DNA of 64,000 nucleotides. It comes from an uncultured Bacteroidota bacterium (GTDB lineage Bacteria > Bacteroidota > Bacteroidia > Flavobacteriales > Flavobacteriaceae). A program made the translations under genes and the position numbers. The stretch is from assembly GCA_902566635.1 (NCBI GenBank), contig CACFJP010000001.1, positions 62,001 to 126,000 of the forward strand, written 5' to 3'. Under the pieces are notes generated by a model, which saw nothing but the letters and a program-made list of their open reading frames with translations, was not told where the DNA came from and searched no databases. Positions 35,622-64,000 of this stretch are shown piece by piece (within the stretch, counting starts at the first letter, position 1; each line of letters starts with the position of its first letter).

Positions 35622-35842
35622 ATAAAAAAAGTAGTCTACTTTGGTGAAATCATGTTGCGCTTAGCACCTCCGGGTTTTTTGCGCTTTTTCTGATTCACTA
35701 GAGAACCTCCGGTAAAGCATATTTAGTTGGAATATGTTCTAAACTGAGCAGCAATGAAATTACTCATAACCAATATCTCATGAAATCCGAAAACAAACTG
35801 CGTCAGGTCCCAGGTGTCATTAAAGAAGTGAACACTATTTAA
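35622..35842 (+). pseudogene. Relic of PfkB-type 2-keto-3-deoxy-sugar (KDG/KDGal) kinase
   Basis: 35622-35693 encodes IKKVVYFGEIMLRLAPPGFLRFF*, matching the conserved KDG kinase N-terminus (ATA in place of a start codon); a second open segment 35714-35842 (KAYLVGICSKLSSNEITHNQYLMKSENKLRQVPGVIKEVNTI*) may be an internal part of the same gene. Confidence 0.65.
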
Positions 35843-37504: not shown

Positions 37505-38968
37505 ATGCTTTGTGATTTATTTTTGTTTAAGTTATACGTCCAGAATTATATAAAAAATATGCATCCGAGACTATTTATTTTTCTTGTAATGATTTGTAGT
37601 AATATGATTGTCAATGCACAAACTCACGTTGCTTCATTCTTTAGTGACGGCATGATACTACAACAACAAAAAAGTATAAATATTTGGGGAATTGATTCGG
37701 CAGGAACAAAAATACATGTCGTAAGTTCATGGGGAGAAACCTCCCAGGCAACCACATCAACGAATGGTAAATGGAAGCTACAATTAACAACTCCAACTGC
37801 GGGTGGTCCACACGCCATTACAATTAAGGGGTCATCAATAGTAACAATTAATGATGTATTGATTGGTGAGGTATGGGTATGTTCAGGACAGTCAAATATG
37901 CAAATACCCCTTAGAGGTGGGTTGGATGGTAATTTCATTGAAGGTGGGTTGGATGCAATTGTGAATTCAAAAAACGACAGAATCCGTTTCTTTACCGTCA
38001 AACAAAATACAAGTTTAAAACCTCTAGACAATGTAAAAGGTATATGGGAAAAAGCAGCACCCTCAACTTCTGGGTCCTTTAGCGCAGTTGGATACTTCTT
38101 TGCCCAACAACTTGAAAAGGTACTAGATGTACCAATTGGGATAGTAGTAACGGCTTGGGGCTCTTCTACGGCTGAGGCATGGTCTGATGTTAAAACACTA
38201 CATGATTTAGGTATAACAATTCCTAATGAAATTGCTGAGATGCCACAAAAAACGCCTACGGCCTTATACAATGCTATGATGCATCCACTTATTGGCTATG
38301 GCATTAAAGGAGTTTTGTGGTATCAAGGAGAAGCAAATCGCCGTAATGCCAATGAATATGAAAAAATAGTCAATACTATGGTTACTTCATGGCGAGAACA
38401 ATGGAATATTGGAGATTTCCCCTTTTATTATGCTCAGATTGCACCTTTTAATTATGGAAAAAATAATTCTGCTTTTTTAAGAGAAGCACAACTCAAGAGT
38501 AGCCAAAGTTTACAAAATGCAGAGATGGTAGTTACGTTAGATGTTGGCGATTGCACCCAAATCCATCCATCAAAAAAAAGGGAAGTTGGCAAGCGTCTGT
38601 CGTATCTTGCAATAGCTAAAGATTATGGCATTAGTGGATATGATTTCAAGTCACCCACATTAACAAATTACTTTATTGATAAACAAGAGATCATTTTAAC
38701 TTTTTCGAACCGTATTCAATTAAACAGGAATGTAGATACCTCAGAAAATTTTGAAATAGCAGGAACGGATATGATTTTTTATCCAGCAAATGCAGTCATG
38801 ACGAGTCCCTATCATAAAGATCAAAAAGTCAGGGTTTTTTCTGAAAAAGTACCCCATCCAAAAGCAGTGCGTTATGGATTTAAAAACTGTGTAATACCAA
38901 CGCTTTTTGGAAGGAATGGCCTTCCTGTTTCATCTTTTAGAACTGATAATTTAAATGCCAATGAATAG
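37505..38968 (+). CDS. SGNH / sialate O-acetylesterase-like carbohydrate esterase (likely start ATG 37559)
   Basis: IGEVWVCSGQSNMQIPLRGG block, GVLWYQGEAN, QIHPSKKREVGKRL (Asp/His region). Confidence 0.85.
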   Translation: MLCDLFLFKLYVQNYIKNMHPRLFIFLVMICSNMIVNAQTHVASFFSDGMILQQQKSINIWGIDSAGTKIHVVSSWGETSQATTSTNGKWKLQLTTPTAGGPHAITIKGSSIVTINDVLIGEVWVCSGQSNMQIPLRGGLDGNFIEGGLDAIVNSKNDRIRFFTVKQNTSLKPLDNVKGIWEKAAPSTSGSFSAVGYFFAQQLEKVLDVPIGIVVTAWGSSTAEAWSDVKTLHDLGITIPNEIAEMPQKTPTALYNAMMHPLIGYGIKGVLWYQGEANRRNANEYEKIVNTMVTSWREQWNIGDFPFYYAQIAPFNYGKNNSAFLREAQLKSSQSLQNAEMVVTLDVGDCTQIHPSKKREVGKRLSYLAIAKDYGISGYDFKSPTLTNYFIDKQEIILTFSNRIQLNRNVDTSENFEIAGTDMIFYPANAVMTSPYHKDQKVRVFSEKVPHPKAVRYGFKNCVIPTLFGRNGLPVSSFRTDNLNANE

Positions 38969-41652: not shown

Positions 41653-42561
41653 ATGAAAATTATAAGCGATAAGAAGACAGTTCTGCTGATATCCCTATTA
41701 TTTACGCTATATTCATGTGGTGGCGAAGATATAGTCAAAAATAGCGATGATCCAGAGGAAATAACAGATGACACTTTGGAGCGTTTTGTTCCTGATGGTT
41801 ATACAAAAACATGGGAAGATCATTTTGATGGCACAGAAATAAATACTGCTCATTGGACGGTAGGATCATTAAGAGATCCAGAAACAGGAGATATTGTACC
41901 AGGTGCCGATGGGGATCATTTGCTTAAAACCAAATACAGTGGTTATGTTACTATAGAGGATAGTTATTTAGAGGACAGTGCTTTAGTGTTACGAAATCAA
42001 AAAAGGTCCTTTACAGGGACAAGCCCTGCGGGCAATTACAGTTACACTAGTGGTTGGGCGATGTCTATGCACAAAGTATATTTCAATAAAGGATATATTG
42101 AAATGCGAGCGCAGTTTCCATCAGGAGATAAGGTTTGGCCTGCACTTTGGTTGATAGCTGAAGATTTAGTTTGGGGACCCGAGTGGGATATGTTTGAATA
42201 TTTTGGTAAAAATACTGTAGGTGAAGATGTGATGGGAATGCATTTATTAGTTGATGAATGGCCCAATCAAAAATGGGATACAGGTTATATTTATAATTTT
42301 GACGCTACATATGACTGTGAAGCATGGCACGTTTATGGATTTGAATGGACAGAAGAAAAGGCGGTTTGGACTGTAGATGGAGAAATAAAAAGAGAGCTGC
42401 TCAAAAGTAACTTAAGTCCTAATAGAGCAAATTTATGGCCCAACGAAGACATGTATATTGTATTCAATAATGAAGTTCAAACCAATGCAACTGATCGAAC
42501 TACTCAATGGCCAAATTACCTTAAGATTGATTATGTTGAAATTTATAAGAAAGATAATTAG
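41653..42561 (+). CDS. Glycoside hydrolase family 16 lipoprotein
   Basis: Lipobox LYSCGGED; IEMRAQFPSGDKVWPALWLI...PEWDMFEYFG (ExDxxE catalytic motif). Confidence 0.92.
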   Translation: MKIISDKKTVLLISLLFTLYSCGGEDIVKNSDDPEEITDDTLERFVPDGYTKTWEDHFDGTEINTAHWTVGSLRDPETGDIVPGADGDHLLKTKYSGYVTIEDSYLEDSALVLRNQKRSFTGTSPAGNYSYTSGWAMSMHKVYFNKGYIEMRAQFPSGDKVWPALWLIAEDLVWGPEWDMFEYFGKNTVGEDVMGMHLLVDEWPNQKWDTGYIYNFDATYDCEAWHVYGFEWTEEKAVWTVDGEIKRELLKSNLSPNRANLWPNEDMYIVFNNEVQTNATDRTTQWPNYLKIDYVEIYKKDN

Positions 42562-42583
42562 AGCAGATCTTTTAATTGGTGCA

Positions 42584-44008
42584 ATGAAAAAGTTTTTCGC
42601 TACTGTGATATATTTCTGTGTAGTTTCATTACCGTTAATGGTAAGTGCACAAGAGCAAAAACCAAATGTTATTTATATCCTTGCAGATGATTTGGGCTAT
42701 GGCGATGTAGGATATAATGGGCAAGAACTCATTGAAACACCTGAGCTTGATAAACTTGCTAACAATGGAATCCGCTTTACTAATCACTATTGCGGAAACG
42801 CAGTTTGTGCGCCAAGCCGTGCTTCTTTGTTGATGGGGCAACACCCAGGCCATGCCTATATCAGGTCCAATAGTCCAGGTTATCCCGATGGGCAAACACC
42901 AATTCCAGCAGATTCCGAAACCCTTGGTAAACTTATGCAACGTGCGGGGTACAAAACAGCTTGCATTGGCAAGTGGGGATTGGGTGGTTTTCATGATAAA
43001 GGCAATCCCAACAAGCAAGGATTTGATTATTTTTATGGGTACACAGATCAAGTGCTAGCTCATAATTATTACCCAAAGTATTTATGGCAAAATGGAAAAA
43101 AGCAATTTCTTGACAACGGAAATGGCAAACAAAATGACTACAGCCACGATCTATTTACAGAAAAAGCCATTTCATTTATCAAACAAAATAAAAATGAACC
43201 TTTCTTTTTGTACTTAGCCTATACTATACCGCACCTCAAATTACAGGTACCGGATTTGGCACAATACAAAGACAAAGAATGGCCCGAAAACATGAAGATT
43301 CAAGCAGCAATGATTTCAAGAATGAGTAGAGATGTTGGGGTTATAGCTAAATTACTGGAATCCTTGGGGTTAGACAAGAATACCCTAATAATGTTTAACA
43401 GCGACAATGGTGCACATGGAAAGGCTGGAACAGAAGCATTTTTTAAGCCCTCTGGCAAATTAAGAGGTATAAAAAGAATGATGTATGAGGGTGGAATTCG
43501 CTCTCCGATGTTTGCCTATTGGCCAGGAACAATTGAAGCAGGTAGTGTTAGCAAACATATTTCAGCATTTTGGGACATGCTACCAACCTTTTCTGAGTTG
43601 ACAGGCGAACCTATCAATGGGCGTACGGATGGAATATCGATGCTACCCACGTTATTGGGTAATGATGTAAAGCAAAAAAAGCATGAATTTTTATATTGGG
43701 AGCTTTATGAGGGTAGGCCCAATAGTGCTGTTCGATTTGGCAAGTGGAAGGCGGTAGTCAAAGACAGACGAAAAGGACTTAATCTAGAACTTTATGATAT
43801 AGAAAAGGACATGGCAGAGCAATTTGATCTTTCCCTACAGCATCCAGAGGTGGTAGTCAAAATTCAGAATATGATGCAAAAAGCACATGTAAAAAATCCC
43901 TTTTGGGACAAATCATTTTCACCGCTATTTAATACAGAGGCAGCTGCTGAGTTTAATGGAGTAAAACCCGACCCTAGCAGATTTTACAATCTTCAAAAAA
44001 AGAAATAA
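42584..44008 (+). CDS. Sulfatase (family S1, arylsulfatase A-like)
   Basis: Start corrected to ATG 42584 (MKKFFATVIYFCVVSLPLMVSAQ signal peptide); PNVIYILADDLGYGDVGYNG; CAPSRASLLMG. Confidence 0.93.
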   Translation: MKKFFATVIYFCVVSLPLMVSAQEQKPNVIYILADDLGYGDVGYNGQELIETPELDKLANNGIRFTNHYCGNAVCAPSRASLLMGQHPGHAYIRSNSPGYPDGQTPIPADSETLGKLMQRAGYKTACIGKWGLGGFHDKGNPNKQGFDYFYGYTDQVLAHNYYPKYLWQNGKKQFLDNGNGKQNDYSHDLFTEKAISFIKQNKNEPFFLYLAYTIPHLKLQVPDLAQYKDKEWPENMKIQAAMISRMSRDVGVIAKLLESLGLDKNTLIMFNSDNGAHGKAGTEAFFKPSGKLRGIKRMMYEGGIRSPMFAYWPGTIEAGSVSKHISAFWDMLPTFSELTGEPINGRTDGISMLPTLLGNDVKQKKHEFLYWELYEGRPNSAVRFGKWKAVVKDRRKGLNLELYDIEKDMAEQFDLSLQHPEVVVKIQNMMQKAHVKNPFWDKSFSPLFNTEAAAEFNGVKPDPSRFYNLQKKK

Positions 44009-44014
44009 TAGCCC

Positions 44015-45880
44015 ATGTTTCATGCCTCTCGTTTTTTCACAACCATTTTCTTTTTTACTTTAACGGTATCAACAGGCTTTTCATTTGCTCAGAAACCCAA
44101 CATACTTTGGATTTATGCAGAGGATACCTCTCCATGGATGGGATGTTATGGTGATGATGTTAACGTTGATGCAACTCCTAACATTGACGCGATAGCGGAA
44201 GTAGGGGTGCGTTTTAACAGGGCGTATGTTCCGGCACCTGTTTGTTCTGCTACCAGATCTGCAATGATTATTGGCCAGTCAGCAATTCGTTTTGGCGCAC
44301 ATCAACACCGATCTTCTAGAACCCCTAAAACGCGTATTCCACTTCCTCAAAATTATAAGCTACTACCTGAGCTGCTTTCTGAGCAAGGGTACACCACTTT
44401 TAACTTTGGTAAAGCAGATTATAATTTTGCTTGGAATCAGGATAAAACCTACAATTACAAGCTCAAAAAAAGAACCGATTTCTCTGAGCTAGTGAATAAA
44501 CAGCCGTTCTTTGGTCAAATTCAACTTAGGGGAGGCAAAAACAATACTGAAAACATAAATATAGAAATTAAAGTTAATCCGAATATTGTTGCTGTTCCCG
44601 CGGATTATCCAAATAATAAAATCTTTAAAGAGGTAGTAGCCCAACACTATGAGGCAATTCGTTTAGATGACAATATTATTGGGAAGATTATACAGCAACT
44701 AAAAGACACTGGGCTTTACAAAAACACCATTGTGGTTTATTTTTCAGACCACGGTGCCAACAACCTTCCAAGGCATAAACAAATGCTCACTGAAGGAGGA
44801 TTGCATGTGCCATTTGTAGTTATGGGGCCAAATAAATATGTCCCAAGCGGTAAAGTTCGTAATGATTTGGTAAACATGCTAGACCTTTCCGCTACTACAT
44901 TGTCTTGGGCAGGAGTTAATGTACCAAACTGGTATGAAGGGCAAAATTTATTTTCAAAAAACTTTACACCAAGAGTTTTTGTTTCTGCACACAAAGACCG
45001 ATTAGATCATACAATTGACAGAGTAAGAACGATAAGAACTGAAAATTATAGATACATTCGAAATTATAAATTAGACCGTATTTTTTTGCAGCCGCAATAC
45101 AGGGATTCAAAAAACTTCATTAAAAACCTTTATCATTTGTATAATTCAGGAAGACTTTCTAAAGTCCATAAAGAAATTTATTTTGGTGAACGCCCTGCAG
45201 AAGAACTATATAATGTAAGTACTGATCCTGCAATGATTTATAATTTGGTTGGAAAACCTACATTTAGTTTAGAACTTAAAAGGCATCGTAAATTGCTAGA
45301 CCAATGGTTAGCCTTTGGTGACATGGGTTCAGAAGCTGAACCTATTGCAAATCTTAAGGCAAATGGCGATGGAAAAAAATGGGGTGAAGGAGTTAATCCA
45401 GAATACGAAAAATATCGCGTGGATTCTGATGGAGATGGCTTATCTGACAGCTGGGAAATAGCCAATAAGAGAGACCCACGTGATGGGCTGCTTTATTTTG
45501 ATTTTGACTGTGGGGGTTGGCAAACAGAAGGTTGGGAGTCGACAGACATTTCTTCCAATTTGGCGGGAAGCTTGGGATATCTGGATTTTAAACTTGATAG
45601 CAAAAAAGGAACGATACATAAAATAGGATTACAAATTAGAGAAACCAATCATCAAAAAAGCATTGCCATTAAAATGAAATCAAACGCCAGCTTGAAAATT
45701 TTTGTTGCAAATGATTATGGCTACTTGGGCACTGCAGAATATTCGGGTAATTCATCTTTTGAAGAAGTATTGATCCCTCTCAATAATAGCACCAGTTTGA
45801 GCGGCACAACAAAGCTAAAAATTTCGTTTCGTGGCAAGAAAAATGACTTGGTTGAAATAGATTATATAAAACAATTATAA
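44015..45880 (+). CDS. Sulfatase (family S1, S1_8-like) with Ca-loop and C-terminal beta-sandwich domain
   Basis: PNILWIYAEDTSPWMGCYGD; CSATRSAMIIGQSAIRFGAHQHRSS; downstream DSDGDGLSDSWE and a ~110 aa extra domain. Confidence 0.88.
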   Translation: MFHASRFFTTIFFFTLTVSTGFSFAQKPNILWIYAEDTSPWMGCYGDDVNVDATPNIDAIAEVGVRFNRAYVPAPVCSATRSAMIIGQSAIRFGAHQHRSSRTPKTRIPLPQNYKLLPELLSEQGYTTFNFGKADYNFAWNQDKTYNYKLKKRTDFSELVNKQPFFGQIQLRGGKNNTENINIEIKVNPNIVAVPADYPNNKIFKEVVAQHYEAIRLDDNIIGKIIQQLKDTGLYKNTIVVYFSDHGANNLPRHKQMLTEGGLHVPFVVMGPNKYVPSGKVRNDLVNMLDLSATTLSWAGVNVPNWYEGQNLFSKNFTPRVFVSAHKDRLDHTIDRVRTIRTENYRYIRNYKLDRIFLQPQYRDSKNFIKNLYHLYNSGRLSKVHKEIYFGERPAEELYNVSTDPAMIYNLVGKPTFSLELKRHRKLLDQWLAFGDMGSEAEPIANLKANGDGKKWGEGVNPEYEKYRVDSDGDGLSDSWEIANKRDPRDGLLYFDFDCGGWQTEGWESTDISSNLAGSLGYLDFKLDSKKGTIHKIGLQIRETNHQKSIAIKMKSNASLKIFVANDYGYLGTAEYSGNSSFEEVLIPLNNSTSLSGTTKLKISFRGKKNDLVEIDYIKQL

Positions 45881-45993
45881 AGACATTGAAGATATGTTAA
45901 CCAGCACAAAATCATGGGTAATATTTAGCACCTTACTATTCCAGTGTTTTATTTATTTTGAGCAGTTGTATTGAACCATTCATAAAAAACGAC

Positions 45994-47592
45994 ATGCTTA
46001 GACATATTTTTACTTTTTCACTCATCTCTTTATCTTTTATAGCCACATCACAAGAACAGCCAAATGTGTTGTTGATTATGGCAGATGATCTTAACGATTA
46101 CATTGGTGCTTTTGGTGGGCACCCTTATGTTAAAACACCCAATATGGACCGCTTGGCAGCATCGGGTGTACAGTTTTCAAATGCACACACCAACGTACCT
46201 GTTTGTCAGCCTTCAAGAAACAGTTTATTTACAGGAGTTTATCCGCACGATTCCGGAGATTTTGGCTGGACACCCATGTCAAAACAACCTGTGCTTAAGC
46301 ACAATAAAACCATGATGGAGTATTTTGTTGAAAACGGCTACCAAACCTTAGGTACAGGAAAATTGACACATGGAGCGCCCCAACAACATTGGCAAGAATG
46401 GGGGAATAATCCTAAGCATAATTATGGGCCATTTTATTTTGATGGTGAGGAAATTGGTGTATTACCAAACGTACCAGACCCCTACCGCCGGATAGGAACT
46501 ATTGATGGCTCTTACGGACGTATTTCTGAAGGTGGCATCACCAATGGTAAATATGGTGAAATCGGTTTGGTTTATGGATGGGACAAGAAGCCGTACAGGT
46601 TTCAAGGCAACGATGACAGGGACCTACTTCAAGGAGAATTACATGCTCAATGGGCCATTGAAAAGTTTGAAAAAATTGCACAAAACAAAACAGCAAAGCC
46701 CTTTTTTATGGGTGTCGGTTTTGTGAGGCCTCATACACCGCTTCATGCTCCCGACGAATATTTTGACATGTATCCCATTGATGAAATCGAATTGGATAAA
46801 TGGATTGACGGTGATGAATTGGACACCTTCTGGAAAGAAAATTTTCAGGGCAACCTATCGCTAGAGGGTGATGTAAAAACAGTTTACGGATACAGAGGAG
46901 GAAATCTTAAAGGTCCATTGTTATTAAAGACATTGGTAGATTCATACGGAGGAGACAGAGAATTAGCTCTTAAATATTTCCTACAAGCCTATTTAGCATG
47001 TATCACATTTGTTGATGATCAGGTTGGGAAAATTTTAGACTCTTTAGAATCAACAGCCTTGAGTAAAAACACCATAGTCATTTTAACCAGTGACCACGGA
47101 TGGCATTTAGGCGAGAAAAACCATTTATTTAAGAACTCTCCTTGGGAAGAAAGTACACGTGTGCCGTACATTGTCCGCATTCCTAATAGCGAAGTGAGAG
47201 GTATTGTAAACCACCCAGTGTCACTAATCGATATTTTTCCAACATTGATTGACTATTGTTCACTTTTGGGTAACACCAAAAAATCAAATTCCGGTGGAAA
47301 TCTAGGCGGGTATTCTTTACGTGCATTTTTAGAAAATCCAAATACAAAAAATTGGAAAGGGCCTAATTATGCCTTAACAATTGTAGGAAACTATGGGCTG
47401 AAATACCCAAAAGAAAAACAAAACTACTCCATGCGCACAAAAGATTATAGATATATTAGATATTCTAATGGAAAAGAGGAGTTGTATCACAACAAAAAAG
47501 ATCCCTACGAGTGGCACAATGTAGTCTTTGAAAAAAGATATAGAACGAAACTTAAAACATTTCGTGCCCAATTAAATAATGTAGTAAATTAG
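45994..47592 (+). CDS. Sulfatase (family S1, iduronate-sulfatase/S1_7-like)
   Basis: Start corrected to ATG 45994 (MLRHIFTFSLISLSFIATSQ); NVLLIMADDLNDYIGAFGGHP; CQPSRNSLFTG. Confidence 0.92.
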   Translation: MLRHIFTFSLISLSFIATSQEQPNVLLIMADDLNDYIGAFGGHPYVKTPNMDRLAASGVQFSNAHTNVPVCQPSRNSLFTGVYPHDSGDFGWTPMSKQPVLKHNKTMMEYFVENGYQTLGTGKLTHGAPQQHWQEWGNNPKHNYGPFYFDGEEIGVLPNVPDPYRRIGTIDGSYGRISEGGITNGKYGEIGLVYGWDKKPYRFQGNDDRDLLQGELHAQWAIEKFEKIAQNKTAKPFFMGVGFVRPHTPLHAPDEYFDMYPIDEIELDKWIDGDELDTFWKENFQGNLSLEGDVKTVYGYRGGNLKGPLLLKTLVDSYGGDRELALKYFLQAYLACITFVDDQVGKILDSLESTALSKNTIVILTSDHGWHLGEKNHLFKNSPWEESTRVPYIVRIPNSEVRGIVNHPVSLIDIFPTLIDYCSLLGNTKKSNSGGNLGGYSLRAFLENPNTKNWKGPNYALTIVGNYGLKYPKEKQNYSMRTKDYRYIRYSNGKEELYHNKKDPYEWHNVVFEKRYRTKLKTFRAQLNNVVN

Positions 47593-47594
47593 AA

Positions 47595-48998
47595 ATGATG
47601 ATAAAAGGTGTTTTTATATTTAACGTGTTACTATTTGTTGCACCAATTTTTGTGTGGAGTCAGTCTAAAAAACCCAATTTAATTGTGATCATGACTGACG
47701 ATATGGGCTATGCAGATGTTGGGTTTAATGGGTGCACAGATATCCCTACACCCAATATTGATTCTATTGCATATAATGGCGCACACATTGTAAATGGTTA
47801 TGTGTCATTTCCAGTTTGTGGACCTAGTAGAGCAGGTTTTATGACGGGCCGCTATCAAGACAGATTTGGCTTTACAACCAACCCAACTATTGATCCGACA
47901 AATGATATTGCTGGTCTTCCACTTGATGAAAAAACCCTAGCTGAGGTTTTACACAAAGAGGGTTATAAAAGTGCTATTGTAGGAAAATGGCATTTGGGTA
48001 CACATCCGAATTTTCATCCATTAAATAGAGGATTTGATTATTTCTATGGTTTTTTATCTGGAGGGCATAATTACTTTATGAATCAATTGACTGTAGAAAA
48101 TCTTGAAAATGTTAAATCAAAATGGGCTTGGTATAGAACAAAGCTGTGGGAAAATCTTAAAACACTAGAATTTGAGGATTATAAGACCGACTACTTAACA
48201 GATGAGCTCAGTGAGGCAGCCCTTCGCTTTATTGATAAACAAGCTGAAAATGACCAATCTTTTTTCTTATTTCTCTCTTATAATGCTCCACATACACCTA
48301 TGCATGCCACTGAAAAATACCTTTCAAGATTTCCAGAAATACAGGATAGAAAAAGAAAGACCTATGCAGCTATGGTAAGTGCTGTTGATGACGGAATAGG
48401 ACTAGTACTAGAGACGTTGAAAGAAAATGTTATAATTGAAAATACCATTATTGTGTTTTTATCTGATAATGGAGGTGCACATAACAATGCTTCTCAAAAC
48501 ACACCTCTGAGAGGAACTAAAGGAAGTGTTTACGAGGGAGGACTAAGAGTGCCATTTGCCATACAATGGAAAGGAGTGATCCCTGTAAATACAAAGTACG
48601 AAGAATCGGTATCTTCATTGGATATTATGGCAAGTATGGTTGACATTTTAGACATTAAATTAAGTCGGAAAAAACCACTAGATGGTGTAAATATCATACC
48701 TTACCTGACTGGTGAAAAGCAAGGCGCGCCTCATGATTATTTGTTTTGGCGAAAGTGGGAACAAAACGCCATGGCAGTAATTCATGGAGATCATAAACTA
48801 CTCAAATCAAATAAAAGATCAGAGACAGAAATTTATAATTTGAAACTTGACGTTTCTGAGTCAAAAAACATTAAAAGCACCAACATTGTTTTGGAAAAAC
48901 AATTGCAAAATGCGTGGAATCATTGGAATAAAAAAAATATAGACAGGATATTCCCAACATTAGGTGAAAACGAATGGTGGACTAAAAATGAAAAATAG
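47595..48998 (+). CDS. Sulfatase (family S1, S1_19-like)
   Basis: PNLIVIMTDDMGYADVGFNG; CGPSRAGFMTGRYQDRFGF; VGKWHLGTHPNFHPLNRGFDYFYGF. Confidence 0.92.
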   Translation: MMIKGVFIFNVLLFVAPIFVWSQSKKPNLIVIMTDDMGYADVGFNGCTDIPTPNIDSIAYNGAHIVNGYVSFPVCGPSRAGFMTGRYQDRFGFTTNPTIDPTNDIAGLPLDEKTLAEVLHKEGYKSAIVGKWHLGTHPNFHPLNRGFDYFYGFLSGGHNYFMNQLTVENLENVKSKWAWYRTKLWENLKTLEFEDYKTDYLTDELSEAALRFIDKQAENDQSFFLFLSYNAPHTPMHATEKYLSRFPEIQDRKRKTYAAMVSAVDDGIGLVLETLKENVIIENTIIVFLSDNGGAHNNASQNTPLRGTKGSVYEGGLRVPFAIQWKGVIPVNTKYEESVSSLDIMASMVDILDIKLSRKKPLDGVNIIPYLTGEKQGAPHDYLFWRKWEQNAMAVIHGDHKLLKSNKRSETEIYNLKLDVSESKNIKSTNIVLEKQLQNAWNHWNKKNIDRIFPTLGENEWWTKNEK

Positions 48999-49003
48999 AT
49001 TTT

Positions 49004-50569
49004 ATGGTTAGGTACGCTTTATTTTCTCTATTTATTTTGACAACATCGCAATTTTTTGCGCAGGAAAAACTCAACGTTTTGATGATTGTTTTGGATGACC
49101 TCAATGATTATGTGGGTGTTTTAGATGGGCATCCACAGGCAAAAACCCCTAACATTGATAGGCTTGCTAATGAAGGAGTTTTGTTTACAAACGCACATGC
49201 CAATGTCCCAGTATGTCAACCATCCAGAGCAAGTTTTATGACAGGTATTTCTCCATTGCGTTCTCGAATGTGGGGATTTGATAATTGGATGAATAACAAA
49301 TTATTAGCGCAAGCAACTACCCTTCCTGAGTTTTTCACTGCAAAGGGCTATGTTAGCATGCAGTCTGGAAAGGTGTTTCATAGTACAAAAAAAGGTGCTT
49401 GGAGCCTTATGGGGGTTAAAAAAGATTATGGCCCCATAGCATTTAATGGCAAAAAATCAGTTCCCCACCCCTTATCTCCAGAAGGTATGCGTGAATTAGG
49501 AGCTCTTGATGCTACATTTTTCTCTTTGGCAGATGTTCCCGAAGTTCCACCTACTTATGATACCCCTGGAGCAAAAGGATGGTATAATGGTAGCTGGGGA
49601 GGAAAACCATTTCGTTATGTAAATGATACTGATAGAGATTTAATGACTGATGAGAAAAGTACTATTTGGGCAAAAAGACAATTGGAAAAACTAAGCAAAC
49701 AAGACAAAGTAAAACCATTTTTTATGGCGATTGGTTTGCATAGACCACACACACCCTTAGTCGTTCCTCAAAAATATTTTGATATGTTCCCATTAAAAAT
49801 CATTCAAACGACACATTTAAAAGAGGAAGATTTTTCGGATACATATTTAGAAAACAACAACCTTAAGAAAGGTGGAATGTCAAGAGGAAGAAAGGCATAT
49901 ATAGGTTTAATTGAAGGGTATGAATCAAAGGAGCTTGCACTAAAAAAATACACACAGGCCTATTTGGCAAGCGTTGCTTTTGCTGATGATCGTGTTGGAG
50001 AGCTGCTTGAAGCATTAGAAAATTCGAAGTTTGCCAAGAATACCATTGTTATTCTCTTTAGTGATCATGGATACAATTTAGGAGAAAAAAAATATCTGTG
50101 GAAGTATAATCTCTGGGAAGAAACTACACGCGTACCACTGATAATAAAAGCGCCAAAATATAACGCAAATGCAGGAAAAAAAGTAACTCATCCGGTTTCA
50201 TTACTAGATATTTATCCTACAATATTATCTCTAACAGGAAATAATGTCTCAAAACTTAAACTAAACGGAATACAGCAGTTAGATGGATTCAGTTTAGAAC
50301 CATTTTTAAAAAATCCTAAAACCAAATTATGGGATGGTCCCGATGCAGCATTAACAGTTATTGCAAGTTGGAGGTCTCAACTTCCTGAACGACAACACCT
50401 ATCAGTAAGAGGAAAAAGATATAGATATATTAAATATGCAAACGGTAAAGAAGAGCTATATGATCACAAAAAAGACCCTTACGAGTGGTACAATCTAGCA
50501 AGTAGTATTGAACATAACAATGTCAAACAAAAACTTTCTTGTATTTTGAATCAACAGTTAAAATTGTAA
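49004..50569 (+). CDS. Sulfatase (family S1, iduronate-sulfatase/S1_7-like)
   Basis: LNVLMIVLDDLNDYVGVLDGHP; CQPSRASFMTG; SDHGYNLGEKKYLWKYNLWEETTRVPLI. Confidence 0.92.
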   Translation: MVRYALFSLFILTTSQFFAQEKLNVLMIVLDDLNDYVGVLDGHPQAKTPNIDRLANEGVLFTNAHANVPVCQPSRASFMTGISPLRSRMWGFDNWMNNKLLAQATTLPEFFTAKGYVSMQSGKVFHSTKKGAWSLMGVKKDYGPIAFNGKKSVPHPLSPEGMRELGALDATFFSLADVPEVPPTYDTPGAKGWYNGSWGGKPFRYVNDTDRDLMTDEKSTIWAKRQLEKLSKQDKVKPFFMAIGLHRPHTPLVVPQKYFDMFPLKIIQTTHLKEEDFSDTYLENNNLKKGGMSRGRKAYIGLIEGYESKELALKKYTQAYLASVAFADDRVGELLEALENSKFAKNTIVILFSDHGYNLGEKKYLWKYNLWEETTRVPLIIKAPKYNANAGKKVTHPVSLLDIYPTILSLTGNNVSKLKLNGIQQLDGFSLEPFLKNPKTKLWDGPDAALTVIASWRSQLPERQHLSVRGKRYRYIKYANGKEELYDHKKDPYEWYNLASSIEHNNVKQKLSCILNQQLKL

Positions 50570-50651: not shown

Positions 50652-51788
50652 ATGACCATAAACACAAACGATTCTGACATCATTGTAAAATCCCCTGGTC
50701 GCATAAATCTGATTGGCGAACACATTGATTACAACGGCGGGCATGTACTGCCGGCAGCGATAGATCGTAAAGTCACCATGTGGTTTAGAAAAAAGGACAA
50801 CAGTCTATGTCGGGTAAATTCTGAAGATGAAGGCGCTTTTACTTTTGATATTAACAAGCCCTTACAAATCAGCGATACCCATTGGGAGAACTATGTGCTT
50901 GGTGTTGTCGATGGCATTGTAAAAGCCCGTCCAGGAAAGCTCGGAGGTTTTGATTGTGTAATATCCAGTGAGTTGCCTATTGGGGCTGGTATCAGCTCAT
51001 CTGCCGCCCTTGAATGTGGTGTTGCCAAAGGCTTAAATGATTTGTTTGACTTAGGGCTTTCCAATTTGGAGCTCATAGAAATCTCTCGCATGGCAGAGCA
51101 CAACTTTGTGGGTACCAAATGTGGGGTGATGGATCAGTTTGCGGTGACGATGGGCAAACGTAAAAAGCTGTTACTTCTCAACTGCGAGACCTTAGACTAC
51201 AGACTCATTGATGCAGAGTTTAAGCCTTATAAGATATTGCTACTGAACACCAATGTATCGCATAACTTAGCATCGAGTGAGTACAACACGCGAAGAGAAG
51301 AATGCGAACAAGCCCTTGCTCTCATTCAAAAGGACCATCCTCATTATGATTTTTTAGCTGATGTTCCAGAAACAATCATCGATACTTATAAAAAAAAACT
51401 CTCTGAAAAAGTCTATCAGCGGGCACTTTTTGTATCTCGCGAAAACGCCAGAACCTTAAAAGCTGCAGAGCTTATCCAAAGCGGAGATATTAAGGGTTTT
51501 GGTAAGCTGATGTACCAAACCCACGAAGGGCTATCCGAAAACTATGAAGTCAGTTGCCCTGAACTCGATTTTTTAGTGGAGCTTTCCAAAGACCTCCCGC
51601 AGGTGGTGGGAAGTCGTATGATGGGTGGCGGCTTTGGCGGTTGCACAATCAACCTTCTGGAAGAGGGCTTTGTCAATGAGTTTATGGATTTGGCAAGCAA
51701 AGCCTACAAACAAAATTTTGATATTAATCTCACTTCCATATTGGTAGCTATCTCAAATGGGGTAGAAACCATAAATTCCGAATTATAG
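50652..51788 (+). CDS. galK: Galactokinase
   Basis: PGRINLIGEHIDYNGGHVLPAAID signature; PIGAGISSSAALECG; MGGGFGGCTINL. Confidence 0.96.
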   Translation: MTINTNDSDIIVKSPGRINLIGEHIDYNGGHVLPAAIDRKVTMWFRKKDNSLCRVNSEDEGAFTFDINKPLQISDTHWENYVLGVVDGIVKARPGKLGGFDCVISSELPIGAGISSSAALECGVAKGLNDLFDLGLSNLELIEISRMAEHNFVGTKCGVMDQFAVTMGKRKKLLLLNCETLDYRLIDAEFKPYKILLLNTNVSHNLASSEYNTRREECEQALALIQKDHPHYDFLADVPETIIDTYKKKLSEKVYQRALFVSRENARTLKAAELIQSGDIKGFGKLMYQTHEGLSENYEVSCPELDFLVELSKDLPQVVGSRMMGGGFGGCTINLLEEGFVNEFMDLASKAYKQNFDINLTSILVAISNGVETINSEL

Positions 51789-52826
51789 ATGAATTTTGAC
51801 AACACCCCACATAGAAGAAAAAACATCCTCACAGGCGAATGGGTACTGGTATCTCCACACCGCACCAAACGCCCATGGCAAGGCAAAAAAGACAAGCCCC
51901 AGGAAGTGGAGCTGTTAGATTACGATCCGAATTGCTATTTATGCCCGGGTAATGAGCGCGCAGGAGGCACCAAAAACCCAGACTATACAGGCACATACAG
52001 CTTCCAAAACGATTTTGCAGCCCTAATTGAAGGCCCAGAAGAAACTTTTATAGAGGGACTACTAGAAGCCGAAAGCGAGTCCGGAATATGTAAAGTGATT
52101 TGCTATCACCCCAATCACAGTTTGACACTGCCACTAATGGAAGAGCGAGACATAGAGCAAGTGATCACCCTTTGGCAAAAGGAATACACTGACCTTGGGA
52201 GCGATCCAAACATCAACCATGTGCAGATTTTTGAGAACAAAGGAGTGATAATGGGCTGCTCCAACCCGCACCCACATGGACAGATATGGGCGCAACGCTC
52301 CATTCCTCAGGCAGTGCAGAAAAAAGTGGTGCATCTAAAAAGCTATTGGGACCAAAACAGCAGCAGTTTATTGGGCGATTATTTACAACAAGAACTTGAT
52401 GCCAAAGAGCGCATTGTAATAGAAAACGAAAGTTTTGTAGCACTTGTTCCTTATTGGGCAATATGGCCATTTGAGACCATGATTATACCCAAAAGACATA
52501 TTACCTCTATTCTAGAACTATCACAGGAAGAAGTATTGGATTATGCAAGTATTCTAAAAGCCCTCACTATTCGCTATGACAACCTTTTTGAAACCTCATT
52601 TCCCTACTCTGCAGGTATACACCAAGCGCCCTCAGATGGAAAGGATAACAGCCACTGGCATATGCATATGTCGTTTTATCCACCCTTACTTCGCTCAGCC
52701 GAGGTCAAGAAATTTATGGTGGGCTACGAGATGTTTGCCAATCCCCAGCGTGACATCACGGCTGAGCAAGCCGCACAACGCTTATGTGATTGTGCAACCA
52801 AACACTATTCAAAAAACAAAACATAA
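51789..52826 (+). CDS. galT: Galactose-1-phosphate uridylyltransferase
   Basis: RKNILTGEWVLVSPHRTKRPWQG; NPHPHGQIWA (HPH active-site motif); starts immediately after galK stop. Confidence 0.96.
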   Translation: MNFDNTPHRRKNILTGEWVLVSPHRTKRPWQGKKDKPQEVELLDYDPNCYLCPGNERAGGTKNPDYTGTYSFQNDFAALIEGPEETFIEGLLEAESESGICKVICYHPNHSLTLPLMEERDIEQVITLWQKEYTDLGSDPNINHVQIFENKGVIMGCSNPHPHGQIWAQRSIPQAVQKKVVHLKSYWDQNSSSLLGDYLQQELDAKERIVIENESFVALVPYWAIWPFETMIIPKRHITSILELSQEEVLDYASILKALTIRYDNLFETSFPYSAGIHQAPSDGKDNSHWHMHMSFYPPLLRSAEVKKFMVGYEMFANPQRDITAEQAAQRLCDCATKHYSKNKT

Positions 52827-52850: not shown

Positions 52851-54539
52851 ATGGATTTTTCAACAATAGACATAGCTGTATTTGCGCTTTATGCGCTGAT
52901 CATTTTATCAATCGGACTCTTTGTATCCCGTCAAAAGAAGGGTGAGACCAAAAGTGCGGAAGATTATTTTTTAGCAGGTAAATCACTCCCTTGGTGGGCG
53001 ATTGGTGCTTCGCTCATTGCTGCCAACATCTCAGCTGAGCAGTTTATCGGCATGTCTGGCTCGGGTTTTGCACTTGGACTTGCGATTGCCTCCTACGAGT
53101 GGATGGCTGCCATCACGCTACTTGTGGTTGGAAAGTACTTTCTGCCCATTTTTATTGAAAAAGGACTGTATACCATTCCAGAGTTTATCGAAAAACGATA
53201 TAGCACCAACCTTAAAACCATATTGGCCGTTTTTTGGATCGCACTCTTTGTATTTGTCAACTTAACAACCGTACTCTTTTTAGGTGGGAAGGCACTGGAT
53301 ACCATTGTAGGAAGCGGCGATGGAAGCATCTTACTCAATAGCATCATAGGACTTGGTCTGTTTGCTGCGGCCTATTCACTATGGGGCGGGCTAGCAGCTG
53401 TGGCTTGGACAGATGTTGTACAAGTGGTATTGCTCATCATAGGCGGTCTACTTATGGCATACTTTGCCTTAGCGAACGTCACAGACTCTGGGAGCTTTAT
53501 CGACGGGCTGAAATACGTTTATGAAAAAGCACCTGAACGCTTTTCGATGATTCTCTCCAAAGGAGAGATTATCACCCCTAACGGAAGAGACGCTTGGTGG
53601 GATTTGCCAGGATTAGCGGTACTCATTGGCGGAATGTGGGTTGCGAACCTGTACTACTGGGGATTTAACCAATATATTATTCAAAGAACACTGGCTGCCA
53701 AAAGCTTAAAAGAAGGTCAAAAAGGAATCGTGTTTGCAGCCTTTTTAAAGCTAATTATTCCTGTGATTGTGGTACTCCCGGGGATCATTGCCTATGTGAT
53801 GAACCTAGACCCTGAGACAGGCAAGCTAAACATGGGTCTTCTGAGCAGCGAGGGTTTTTTGGGAACCGCTGGCAATGTCGCCAATGACAATGCTGCACCT
53901 TGGCTGATTAAAAACTTTATCCCTGTGGGGCTAAAAGGTCTTATCCTAGCTGCCCTAGCCGCAGCGATAGTCTCTTCACTAGCCTCGATGATTAACTCCA
54001 CATCGACCATATTTACCATGGATATCTACAAATCGATATTCAACAAAAATGCCAACGACAAGCAAATGGTTAAAGTGGGACGCCTTACAGGACTTGTTGC
54101 CCTTATTATCGCCATGCTGATTGCACCGCAACTGGGTAGTCTGGGGCAGGTGTTCCAGTTTATACAAGAATATACAGGGGTTGTAAGCCCGGGGATATTG
54201 GCGGTGTTCCTCATGGGACTCTTTTATAAAAAAGCCACTAACAACGCAGCAATTTGGGGTGTGATATTGTCCATTCCGATTGCAATGTACTTTAAAGTAG
54301 CACCTAACGGCTGGAGTGATGCGGCCTTGTTTGTGAACCTTCCGTTTATGCACCAGATGATGCTGACTTGTATCGGTACATTAATCGTGATTGCAGGGAT
54401 AAGTATGCTAGAAGGTAATCAAGATGATCCAAAAGGCATCGTGCTGAGCAAAAAGCTCTTTGCCACAGACAAAACGTTCAATGTTGGTGCTTTTGGCGTT
54501 CTACTTATTACAGTACTATTGTACGCATTGTTTTGGTAA
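52851..54539 (+). CDS. Sodium/solute symporter (SSS family, vSGLT-like sugar:Na+ symporter)
   Basis: EDYFLAGKSLPWWAIGASLIAANISAEQFIGMSGSGFALGLAI; NQYIIQRTLAAKSLKEGQKG; next to galK/galT. Confidence 0.93.
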   Translation: MDFSTIDIAVFALYALIILSIGLFVSRQKKGETKSAEDYFLAGKSLPWWAIGASLIAANISAEQFIGMSGSGFALGLAIASYEWMAAITLLVVGKYFLPIFIEKGLYTIPEFIEKRYSTNLKTILAVFWIALFVFVNLTTVLFLGGKALDTIVGSGDGSILLNSIIGLGLFAAAYSLWGGLAAVAWTDVVQVVLLIIGGLLMAYFALANVTDSGSFIDGLKYVYEKAPERFSMILSKGEIITPNGRDAWWDLPGLAVLIGGMWVANLYYWGFNQYIIQRTLAAKSLKEGQKGIVFAAFLKLIIPVIVVLPGIIAYVMNLDPETGKLNMGLLSSEGFLGTAGNVANDNAAPWLIKNFIPVGLKGLILAALAAAIVSSLASMINSTSTIFTMDIYKSIFNKNANDKQMVKVGRLTGLVALIIAMLIAPQLGSLGQVFQFIQEYTGVVSPGILAVFLMGLFYKKATNNAAIWGVILSIPIAMYFKVAPNGWSDAALFVNLPFMHQMMLTCIGTLIVIAGISMLEGNQDDPKGIVLSKKLFATDKTFNVGAFGVLLITVLLYALFW

Positions 54540-54553
54540 GATGCGTAGTAATT

Positions 54554-55498
54554 TTAATTAGTGTCCTCGTAAATTTTTAGGTAATCCAATATAAGTGCAT
54601 TGGGAAAGGTGGTGTTCTCATCGCTGACAACTCGCATTAGTCCATTGTTAATTACCAAACACATGGGTTTGTTTGGCCAGTCAGCTGATGGAACTTCTAC
54701 TCCTTTGGTCTTTGTATGTATGAGCTGGTCATCGATATACCAACTCATACGATCTTTTGTCCAAAGAAATCCATAGTTGTAAAACTGATTGAATGCACTA
54801 TAAGTTTGCTGAAAATTTTCAATGGGCACACTGTGGTCTTTTTTATCGTTCCAAAACCCATATATGTAGCGCATAAACATTTCATCAGTCCGATTGGTAT
54901 TAAAAAAGCGACCAAAATATTCCCATATATCAATCTCAGGGGGCCAGCCCCTGTTTGGGGAGTCGTCAATCAACCAAACGGCAGGCCAAACTTTATCACC
55001 TTTTGGAAATTGGGCACGTATTTCAATGTAAACTCCTTTTTCTGTTCCATTAAAGTTAATTTTTTGCAGGGAGTTAATCCATCCTGTCGTATAGTCAAAC
55101 TGTCCTACGGGGTCTGTACCTTGTATTTTTTCCTTTCTGTTTTCTAAAAAAAGTAGTCCGTCAGTAACATAGACATTATTGTCTACAAGGTAACCATCAT
55201 AATTGTCATTCAACAGATGCTCACCACCTGTATTTTTATTCCAAATCATTCTAATGGATTCATCGGTGTCATGAATTAGCCCCTTTGACCAATTTGTTTC
55301 ATCAAAAAAACCAAAATCATCTTGCCTAATCAGCTCATAATTTGCTAGAACAGGATTTGTGGATGAATTGTTATCATTTAAATCGTCTTCAGCAGCATCG
55401 GAGAGGCCATTGTTTTGAGAATTACATGAAAAAATAAAAACAAAGAGGATTGAAATTATAGTGTTTTTGTTGGCAAAAAAACTTCTCGATAGACCCAT
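54554..55498 (-). CDS. Glycoside hydrolase family 16 lipoprotein (paralogue of 41653..42561)
   Basis: Lipobox FIFSCNSQN; IEIRAQFPKGDKVWPAVWLI...PPEIDIWEYFG. Confidence 0.9.
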   Translation of the reverse strand: MGLSRSFFANKNTIISILFVFIFSCNSQNNGLSDAAEDDLNDNNSSTNPVLANYELIRQDDFGFFDETNWSKGLIHDTDESIRMIWNKNTGGEHLLNDNYDGYLVDNNVYVTDGLLFLENRKEKIQGTDPVGQFDYTTGWINSLQKINFNGTEKGVYIEIRAQFPKGDKVWPAVWLIDDSPNRGWPPEIDIWEYFGRFFNTNRTDEMFMRYIYGFWNDKKDHSVPIENFQQTYSAFNQFYNYGFLWTKDRMSWYIDDQLIHTKTKGVEVPSADWPNKPMCLVINNGLMRVVSDENTTFPNALILDYLKIYEDTN

Positions 55499-55532: not shown

Positions 55533-57440
55533 TTAGTTCACAACAATTTTAGAAATAATCGTATTGGTTTTGTCCCTGAGTTGTAAAAGATAGATGCCTG
55601 GATTTAGAGACTCATCCAAAATGATTTCGTCTTTTTGGGCTTCTAAAAAGCCTTGTTGTTTGGTTCGCCCCAATATATCAACCAGTGCATATTGGTAAGA
55701 CTTATTAACTCCATAGAGTACCACTTTATCAGAAATCATAGGGTTTTGAATGTAAACCTTTCCGGTTGAAATATCGGATTTGTTTGAGAGTGTAATTTCT
55801 CCATTTTTCGCATTGCTAGCACCTATATTGGGTGTAGAATCTAATGATAGAGAATTGCCAAAGAAATCCACTGTTGGATATTCCTCCACGTTGACAAAAA
55901 TAGTTGATGCATCCACTGGAATGGCTGGATGAGCATAATTCCCTGTATAGGCTACACCTGCATCTATTGCTTGGCTAGAAGCATCAATTTGAAATCCATA
56001 CTGGTCACCACTTTGTTCATTGTAAAAAATAGGATTAACCTCAATTCTGTTTGCGTCGATGGTTTTGAAATTATTTCTAATATTTCCAAAAAACAGGTTG
56101 TTGGTCATCATTAGGTTAGGGTCACTATAATTACCTTGTTGATTTCCAATACCAGAGCCATTAACAGCATAAAAAATATTATTAAAAATTCGGGTGTTTT
56201 GCCCATTGATATCAATTGCTGTGTCGAATGCATCATTTCCGCTTTTATTTATGACAACAGTGTTATTGTATATATAACTGTCATAAGAAGGGTGCCCGCT
56301 TTGACCCCCAATTTTATCATTCAACCATATTGTATGATCGCTGTTTGCCCAATTGGGGTTTACACGCCAGCCATCATTGACACTAATGTTGAAGCGATAA
56401 ACAGCACGTTGGTTTCCACCAAGAATCTCAACAAACCCACCCTCACAATCTTGCATGTAATTGTATTGTATAAATGTATCCACGTTAGAATGGTCCACAT
56501 GAATTCCATGAGAGTCCAGAATTCCTTTTGCATTTATGGCTTGGTTATGCTGAACAATAGTATTGATGCTATACCAATTCCAAACGGCACTTCCACGACC
56601 AATCATTTTATCATTGGTTTTGGCACCAGGTTGGTTGAAAATATTATTTTCAATCAAACAGTTTTCAGTTCTGATAGGTAGTACACATGTACCCCCTATT
56701 TGAAAAAACTCATTATTTCTAAAAACAAAATTCGTATTTCTTTTGTCAGAATTTTTACCAGAAGTATTTTTAATATGAACCCCAATACGTTGTAAATCAG
56801 TAAAGTAAGAATCTTCAACAACCACATCATTAATAATACCACCCCAAGATGACATAAAAGTTAAACCAGATACTTCAAAAGCGTTGAATTCACTTTGATT
56901 TGACGGATCTACCCAATAGAGACCATAGACATTTTTGAATGTCATATTTCTAAAGAAAAAGTTATTGAGATTTACATTAGAATCAGACACCTCTATTCTT
57001 ATTCCAAAACTTACCAAATCTCCAACGCCAGTACGCGATATTGTTCTGTGATTTTGTATCTCTAAATCGTCAAAAACCATATTGTCATGATTGGTTACAA
57101 GAATTGCTTCTCGATAATCTCCTCCACCATCTTCATGATCCGAACCGCTTAAAATAGGCTGATTTCCAGTCCCATAAGAGGTAAAGGTGATTGGGTTTCC
57201 TTCTGTCCCTGATCCATTAACAACATAATGCCCTCGAAACGTATCTCCCTTTTTGAAATAGACTGTATCACCAGGGCCAAGTGTGATATTGCTAAGTTTT
57301 GATAAAGTTTTCCATGGCTGCGTTTGCGAACCATTGTTGTTGTCATTTCCAGTTGAGCTGCTCAAATAGTATTGATTTTGAGCACATAAAGAAAAACTCA
57401 AAAGCAATACAAATACTTGATATTTAATCTGTTTATGCAT
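55533..57440 (-). CDS. Secreted right-handed parallel beta-helix protein with T9SS C-terminal sorting domain
   Basis: Signal peptide; YYLSSSTGNDNNNGSQTQPWKTLSKLS N-terminal beta-helix cap, repeated N-rich coils; T9SS tail ALVDILGRTKQQGFLEAQKDEIILDESLNPGIYLLQLRDKTNTIISKIVVN. Confidence 0.85.
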   Translation of the reverse strand: MHKQIKYQVFVLLLSFSLCAQNQYYLSSSTGNDNNNGSQTQPWKTLSKLSNITLGPGDTVYFKKGDTFRGHYVVNGSGTEGNPITFTSYGTGNQPILSGSDHEDGGGDYREAILVTNHDNMVFDDLEIQNHRTISRTGVGDLVSFGIRIEVSDSNVNLNNFFFRNMTFKNVYGLYWVDPSNQSEFNAFEVSGLTFMSSWGGIINDVVVEDSYFTDLQRIGVHIKNTSGKNSDKRNTNFVFRNNEFFQIGGTCVLPIRTENCLIENNIFNQPGAKTNDKMIGRGSAVWNWYSINTIVQHNQAINAKGILDSHGIHVDHSNVDTFIQYNYMQDCEGGFVEILGGNQRAVYRFNISVNDGWRVNPNWANSDHTIWLNDKIGGQSGHPSYDSYIYNNTVVINKSGNDAFDTAIDINGQNTRIFNNIFYAVNGSGIGNQQGNYSDPNLMMTNNLFFGNIRNNFKTIDANRIEVNPIFYNEQSGDQYGFQIDASSQAIDAGVAYTGNYAHPAIPVDASTIFVNVEEYPTVDFFGNSLSLDSTPNIGASNAKNGEITLSNKSDISTGKVYIQNPMISDKVVLYGVNKSYQYALVDILGRTKQQGFLEAQKDEIILDESLNPGIYLLQLRDKTNTIISKIVVN

Positions 57441-57452
57441 GATAGCGTCTAT

Positions 57453-60623
<3,171 letters not shown>

Positions 60624-62593: not shown

Positions 62594-63766
62594 ATGATTA
62601 CAATTTCCAATATTGAAACTTTTGTGCTGAAAGACACTTTAGAAAAAAGTTTTTTCTTTTCTCAATGGGAATATTCAGAGCGCTGTATATGTATTGTTAA
62701 AATCACCTGCTCTGATGGTACTTACGGTTGGGGAGAAGGTTATGGTCCAGCTCTTATTTTAGAGTCTGGAATTGAGTTTTTAAAATCTCAGGTGATAGGA
62801 GAAAATCCCTTACACAATGAAGTGATTTGGAATAATATGTACCGCAAAACACTAGATTTTGCCCGTCGTGGTGTTTTGGTAGCCTCAATGAGCGCTATCG
62901 ATATCGCTATCTGGGACATTAAGGGAAAATTATTGAATCAGCCTGTGGGCGCATTGCTAGGTGGCGTACACAGGAATTATGTAGTTCCCTACGCCACTGG
63001 AATGTATTTTACAGATAAAGACAATCCGGCTAAAGGTTTTGAGCTGGAGGCCAAAAGATATTTAGAAAAAGGGTTTAAGGCCATAAAAATGAAAGTAGGT
63101 CTCGGCATTGACAGAGATGTTTCTATTGTGAAGCATTTACGTTCTATTATCGGAGACGATATCAAACTTATGATTGATTCAAACCATGCTTACACATATA
63201 TTGAGGCACTTGAATTGGCAAAAAAATTAGAGGCCTGCCAAATTTCATGGTTTGAAGAGCCTGTGTCTCCAGAGTTTTATGAACAATACGGAGAATTGAG
63301 ACAAAAAACCACCATACCTATTGCAGGAGGTGAATGTGAATACTTACGTTTTGGTTTTCATCAGCTACTAAGAAACAAATCGGTTGACATCATCCAACCC
63401 GATATTTGTGCTTGTGGCGGACTGACAGAGGCCAAGCGCATCGCATCGCTAGCCTCCACATACGGAGTAGATGTGGTTCCACATACTTGGGGTAGTTCTA
63501 TAGGCCTTCATGTTGCCTTACATTTTGTATCCAACCTAGAGTCTGTTCCTGGACGAATGTTTAGCCCCGATTTTCTGTTAGAGTTTGATCAGACAGAGAA
63601 TGCGTTGCGAGAACAACTAACATTCCCTATCTTAGAGATGAAAAATGGAAAGATTAAAGTACCTAATGCACCTGGACTAGGTCTTGAAGTCGACCAAGAT
63701 GCACTTCATAAATTTACCAATCCAACAAATGGAGTTGCTGATATTAAAGAATTGCTGAAACAATAA
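62594..63766 (+). CDS. Enolase-superfamily (mandelate racemase/muconate lactonizing) protein; candidate 3,6-anhydrogalactonate cycloisomerase or sugar-acid dehydratase
   Basis: AIKMKVG (KxK), MIDSNHAY, WFEEPV, GGECE, DICACGG, VVPHTWG; followed by an aldehyde dehydrogenase. Confidence 0.85.
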   Translation: MITISNIETFVLKDTLEKSFFFSQWEYSERCICIVKITCSDGTYGWGEGYGPALILESGIEFLKSQVIGENPLHNEVIWNNMYRKTLDFARRGVLVASMSAIDIAIWDIKGKLLNQPVGALLGGVHRNYVVPYATGMYFTDKDNPAKGFELEAKRYLEKGFKAIKMKVGLGIDRDVSIVKHLRSIIGDDIKLMIDSNHAYTYIEALELAKKLEACQISWFEEPVSPEFYEQYGELRQKTTIPIAGGECEYLRFGFHQLLRNKSVDIIQPDICACGGLTEAKRIASLASTYGVDVVPHTWGSSIGLHVALHFVSNLESVPGRMFSPDFLLEFDQTENALREQLTFPILEMKNGKIKVPNAPGLGLEVDQDALHKFTNPTNGVADIKELLKQ

Positions 63767-63770
63767 AAAT

Positions 63771-64000
63771 ATGGAGTTCGGTTATCAAAAAATGTATATC
63801 GGGGGGGGCATTAATAGAAAGTGTATCCAAAAATAGATCAGATGTTATTTGCCCAGCCGACGGCAAACCCATTGCTCAAATTGCTGAAGCAGGGAAAGCA
63901 GATGCTGAAAAGGCACTAGAAGCTGCCCAAAAAGGATTCGAGTTTTGGTCAAAATGCTCTTTGTCAGAACGTACACACTGGATGTTAAAACTCAGAGAAG
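63771..64000 (+). pseudogene. Aldehyde dehydrogenase N-terminus, apparent frameshift at a G8 tract (3' end outside window)
   Basis: ATG 63771 reads MEFGYQKMYIGG then reaches TAG at 63834; removing one G from 63801-63808 gives MEFGYQKMYIGGALIESVSKNRSDVICPADGKPIAQIAEAGKADAEKALEAAQKGFEFWSKCSLSERTHWMLKLRE, a typical ALDH N-terminus. Confidence 0.75.

Follow-up and report, generated by a model that had tools for sequence, protein, structure and literature searches.

Carrageenan-type galactans are an abundant form of marine carbon, and in a 2025 paper one pathway still has an unknown neocarrabiose-splitting enzyme (PMC12549532). The window (the whole stretch of 64,000 nucleotides analysed here) encodes three beta-galactosidase-type enzymes (GH2) and no recognised alpha-(anhydro)galactosidase, as the initial annotation had stated and as our gene annotation confirmed. 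This raised the question of which bond is cut by a 635-aa secreted beta-helix protein encoded in the same locus.

In total, the window holds a SusC/D pair, three GH2 enzymes, two GH16 enzymes, six S1 sulfatases, one esterase, GalK and GalT. The genes of SusD (27422..29086) and the SusC-like TonB-dependent receptor (29105..32476) are on the minus strand and are followed on the plus strand by that of GH2a (32684..35617), which has relatives at 44-45% in the dauB loci of genomes G016 and G063. Next come a minus-strand sulfatase whose closest solved relatives include S1_15 6-O-sulfatases (35835..37361; 7ozc, 3e-196; 9bas, S1_15A, 4e-146) and a plus-strand series composed of a SASA-type carbohydrate esterase (37505..38968), the beta-galactosidase-like GH2b (38955..41645), a second copy of GH16 (41653..42561), three S1 sulfatases (42458..44008, where the TTG start is mechanical and the true start is probably further in; 44015..45880; 45958..47592), an S1_19-type sulfatase closest to the iota/kappa-carrageenan sulfatases (47595..48998; 6bia, 6e-99; 6prm, 1e-94), another S1 sulfatase (49004..50569), galactokinase (50652..51788), galactose-1-phosphate uridylyltransferase (51789..52826) and a sodium:solute symporter (52851..54539). 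The beta-helix gene (55533..57440) lies on the minus strand between a GH16 gene (54554..55498), whose product has a lipoprotein-like N-terminus and laminarinase-type enzymes as its closest solved relatives, and the gene of a LacZ-type GH2 (57453..60620) located upstream in the same gene run; the gaps are 34 nt on the GH16 side and 12 nt on the LacZ side.

At the end of the window, the plus strand encodes a DauB-like 3,6-anhydro-D-galactonate cycloisomerase of the MR_MLE type (62594..63766), whose top match (E 6e-144) is 5olc, the Zobellia DauB (PMC5698469), and the start of a DauA-like aldehyde dehydrogenase (63771..64000) that runs past the window and is followed by genes for an HpcH/HpaI aldolase, a RhaT-like symporter, an AraC regulator and a sulfatase. 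Comparison with a Zobellia-type locus (L109/L110) gave 55% for DauB, 50% for the symporter and 36% for the regulator; the DauA-like protein, compared with its G013 counterpart only, is 53% identical to it. Since two of the sulfatases are closest to the S1_19 and S1_15 types and the DauB/DauA-like proteins, symporter and regulator resemble those of the Zobellia-type locus, the gene content points to a carrageenan-family galactan with D-anhydrogalactose as the target. The D-anhydrogalactose genes had no mention in the initial annotation of the beta-helix protein. An agar-type substrate with L-anhydrogalactose was set aside because, among solved structures, the cycloisomerase is nearest to DauB, which acts on the D-form. 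The locus shares dauB, dauA, a DMT symporter, an AraC regulator and an S1_19-type sulfatase with the Zobellia carrageenan regulon, whereas the GH127 and DagB enzymes employed by Zobellia (PMC5698469) are both absent from the window.

Two minor observations concern the dau genes. A run of eight G is found at 63801-63808, in the first part of the DauA-like gene, and the frame changes there, which may reflect an assembly error or a real break; in G001 and G007 (L059 and L058), the corresponding stretch reads through without a change of frame. The HpcH/HpaI-type aldolase gene located after dauA/dauB here is also found in G452 and G177, at about 62% identity (L063:1210-1974; L113:7536-8297; L115:19376-19900). 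No DauC- or DauD-like gene was recognised in the L063 stretch, which may represent a different end of the anhydrogalactose route.

The beta-helix gene has an ATG start and exact ORF bounds. Its product is composed of a signal peptide region (residues 1-22; 57375..57440), seen as a hydrophobic N-terminus, a beta-helix catalytic domain (residues 23-545; 55806..57374), delimited by family alignment, profile search and hhalign, and a T9SS type A sorting tail (residues 565-635; 55536..55748), all on the minus strand. The beta-helix N-cap reads YYLSSSTGNDNNNGSQTQPWKTLSKL. The sorting tail is the only part of the protein recognised by Pfam and NCBIfam, with 27.5 bits for TIGR04183 (NCBIfam cut-off 23) and 19.5 bits for Por_Secre_tail, under the Pfam cut-off of 27; the Pfam model for right-handed beta helices recognises 14 members of the 18-sequence family alignment, the 635-aa protein itself not being one of them. 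The ORF, NCBIfam and gene-order data agree with the initial annotation as to the 635-aa ORF, its signal peptide, N-cap, T9SS tail and place between GH16 and LacZ, and also as to the kind of protein, a secreted beta-helix carbohydrate-active protein in a sulfated-galactan locus. Orthologues with the same neighbours were found in six other genomes (75-94% identity) and dN/dS was about 0.11 (dN 0.031/dS 0.278; dN 0.062/dS 0.578), from which we conclude that the gene is real and constrained; it is under strong purifying selection.

The results of our homology searches identified the protein as a homologue of GH136. A single-sequence search of the PDB already gave 7v6m (8e-14) and 6kqs (3e-13), with the homology starting at residue 22-24, and the profile of the 18-sequence family matched all five GH136 chains found, with E values from 1e-57 to 3e-42. 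When the family was aligned with LnbX and ErLnb136 by hhalign, the probability was 100% (E 5e-44) over 465 columns with 25% identity. In ErLnb136, D568 is the acid/base, D575 is the nucleophile and W548 stacks on galactose (PMC7335108). The residues aligned with the first two, D309 (56514..56516, minus strand) and D316 (56493..56495, minus strand), are invariant across the 18 family sequences and, as in GH136, seven residues apart; this is in line with the conserved acidic residues anticipated for the protein. In the W287-N-W289 motif (56574..56582, minus strand), W287 is invariant and W289 occupies the position of the W548 aromatic platform, which is W, F or Y in the relatives. Judged from these alignments, the beta-helix protein is a GH136 homologue and not a new fold family; the family profile and hhalign, with both catalytic aspartates aligned, speak against the earlier proposal of a possible new family.

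Kinship with GH82, GH110 or PL6, which had also been raised, was not upheld by any significant match in the sequence and profile searches. The best E value for GH110 with the family profile against the PDB was 0.03, GH82 gave no profile match in the PDB and a fold-search E value of 0.67 on a poor model, and the PDB searches showed no homology to PL6/PsAly-type alginate lyases across the catalytic domain, the strongest part of the 6kfn match lying in the N-cap region. No match named GH120 was obtained in the PDB searches with the single sequence and the family profile, and the GH127 catalytic domain (PF07944) had no Pfam match in the protein. The AlphaFold model, built from seven sequences, was too poor (mean pLDDT 48) for a pocket to be described; the top matches of a fold search with this model were still GH136, which we take as support only, and PL6 appeared in this search alone. 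A viral scan returned one distant relative, and phage matches were weak.

The protein has the full-length beta-helix domain, the N-cap, the D-x6-D spacing and the core of W, N, Asp pair, Q-Y and R-N of the GH136 lacto-N-biosidases, the gut-bacterial type that cuts a human-milk sugar (LnbX, 5gqc; ErLnb136, 6kqs; TnX, 7v6m and 7v6i). It differs from them by its identity of about 25%, by H314 and E338 near the Asp pair, where GH136 has Asp and Met, by an ORF that has no GH136I domain, and by its marine sulfatase locus instead of a milk-sugar or mucin locus. In our tree, the marine clade lies outside the group formed by LnbX and ErLnb136, so that on aligned sequences the protein is in a clade of its own relative to the characterised enzymes; this separation concerns subfamily and not homology, and CAZy sets its own family borders. 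Clear kinship with a characterised family whose substrate is unrelated, the outcome that had been named as fatal to a galactan-degrading role, was found in one half only: lacto-N-biosidase is, to our knowledge, the only characterised activity of GH136, but the clade is distant and its context different.

Very probably, the protein is a GH136-clade glycosidase for a sulfated galactan of some kind. From homology, aligned catalytic residues, export signals and locus content we infer activity, substrate and bond, and our tentative preference, held with rather less than even confidence, is for a T9SS-exported retaining glycosidase that would act on a carrageenan-family galactan and release disaccharides at beta bonds. 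GH136 enzymes cleave a beta bond with retention of configuration, the product being a disaccharide (PMC7335108, PMC8106489), so that the release of neocarrabiose is the nearest reading. This reaction has a published precedent in GH167, a beta-neocarrabiose-releasing enzyme whose fold, of clan GH-A, is unrelated (PMC6923384). After T9SS export, the enzyme would act outside the cell on the sulfated galactan once the sulfatases have prepared its end. It would hold a disaccharide with an O3-substituted reducing sugar, (anhydro)Gal-alpha-1,3-Gal, as lacto-N-biosidase does, in a pocket beside W287/W289, where D316 would attack C1 with D309 as acid/base. The beta bond beyond the held disaccharide would be cut, yielding neocarrabiose-type disaccharides, and the released sugars would be imported and enter the Leloir and DauA/DauB routes. 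Three points count against this beta-cutting activity. The identity to characterised GH136 enzymes is low and the pocket differs at H314 and E338; the helical GH136I partner, reported as needed for GH136 activity (PMC7335108), was not recognised among the neighbours as annotated either; and the alpha-1,3-anhydrogalactose bond is left without a known enzyme.

The strongest alternative, which is possible and to us somewhat less probable, is that the protein is the missing exo-alpha-1,3-(3,6-anhydro)-D-galactosidase (or alpha-1,3-galactosidase), in place of GH127/DagB. It is reached by elimination of the known enzymes and from the distribution of GH127 in dauB genomes. GH127 was found in 0/6 genomes having the beta-helix gene near dauB (G000, G001, G007, G010, G080 and G016), whereas a strong GH127 was present on the dauB contig in 8/9 other dauB flavobacteria (Fisher test, p = 0.0014 by genome and 0.048 by genus). 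However, the six genomes represent few lineages (three genera, two of which have the same locus) and most are incomplete, several being only 64-78% complete. They gave neither a GH110 domain nor a DagB-like protein; the G013 DagB-like protein served as the query because PF11308 (GH129) matched nowhere, even in the Zobellia-like genomes. The recognised glycosidases that neighbour the beta-helix gene are GH2 and GH16, which are expected to cut beta bonds. The C1-O bond of bridged 1C4 alpha-D-anhydrogalactose is equatorial, as in GH136 substrates, and alpha-1,3 activity is therefore chemically possible. In addition, beta-neocarrabiosidase is still listed as unknown, in a study where GH110, an alpha-1,3-galactosidase that is also a beta helix, is used on lambda-carrageenan oligosaccharides (PMC12549532).

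Several observations go against an alpha-cutting enzyme. With T9SS export, anhydrogalactose would be set free extracellularly, while a periplasmic location is given for the Zobellia enzymes (PMC5698469), and a close DauB was missing in 15 of the 22 beta-helix genomes searched. The ninth dauB genome, G063, has neither a dauB-linked GH127 (a weak match lies on another contig) nor a relative of the beta-helix protein; its dau locus holds a GH78-like protein instead (L118:17058-18719 with L111:3-941). Since the known GH136 enzymes are retaining beta-glycosidases, the beta bond is slightly favoured, and the disaccharide-releasing activity is preferred narrowly to an alpha-1,3-anhydrogalactosidase. 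That the GH136 fold was recruited in marine Bacteroidetes as a GH127-replacing alpha-1,3-(3,6-anhydro)-D-galactosidase working with a GH136-type Asp/Asp pair is, in our estimation, rather unlikely.

The target may also be a minor or different sulfated-glycan motif, such as a branch or a non-carrageenan galactan, and not the carrageenan backbone, which we consider improbable. The wider clade adjoins sulfatases in varied loci, some of which have GH16 and Glyco_hydro_cc (GH128-type) and no galactose genes. Against a minor motif, the beta-helix gene is accompanied both in the window and in genome G092 by galactose genes and by sulfatases related to S1_19 and S1_15. A close DauB is missing from G092, which yet repeats the locus design (Sulf1 49%, Sulf5 53%, LacZ 41% and GalT 63%), and the recognised glycosidases of its locus are only LacZ and two beta-helix proteins. 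It is very improbable that GH2a supplies the missing activity with the beta-helix protein as an accessory or binding protein; a GH2a-like protein and a sulfatase do recur in the dauB loci without GH127 (the window, G016 and G063), but the Asp pair is strictly conserved, the beta-helix gene is under strong purifying selection, and GH2 enzymes would be expected to cut the beta-1,4 bond anyway (PMC5698469).

GH136 is already known in sulfatase-bearing marine Bacteroidetes, with no assigned substrate: it was reported in Flammeovirga replicons (PMC8653839) and, in Winogradskyella forsetii, in a locus with sulfatases that had no obvious substrate and was termed enigmatic (PMC9723794). The Winogradskyella locus is comparable to ours by annotation, as GH136 with sulfatases. 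A protein of Flammeovirga kamogawensis shares 49.7% identity with the 635-aa protein. The tie of this clade to anhydrogalactose loci offers one testable protein for both the neocarrabiose gap and the enigmatic GH136/sulfatase locus, and would reveal that a family of milk-sugar enzymes has an algal branch. The protein may fill a recognised gap in algal galactan breakdown by one of the candidate cuts.

Other arrangements of the beta-helix domain were seen among the relatives. G016 (L043) has two adjacent beta-helix genes of different subclades beside dauA/dauB and GH2a, and one of the two beta-helix proteins of G092 (L041:8568-12662) is a fusion in which the beta-helix domain is joined to a sulfatase, a CBM35 and a T9SS tail. 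The relative in G208 (L105, L108; G208:C17) is broken by stops, and this genome has GH127. Finally, a T9SS-tailed 269-aa protein encoded at 61310-62119 of the window shows 45% identity in G010, against 92-95% for the neighbouring genes, which suggests rapid evolution or exchange.
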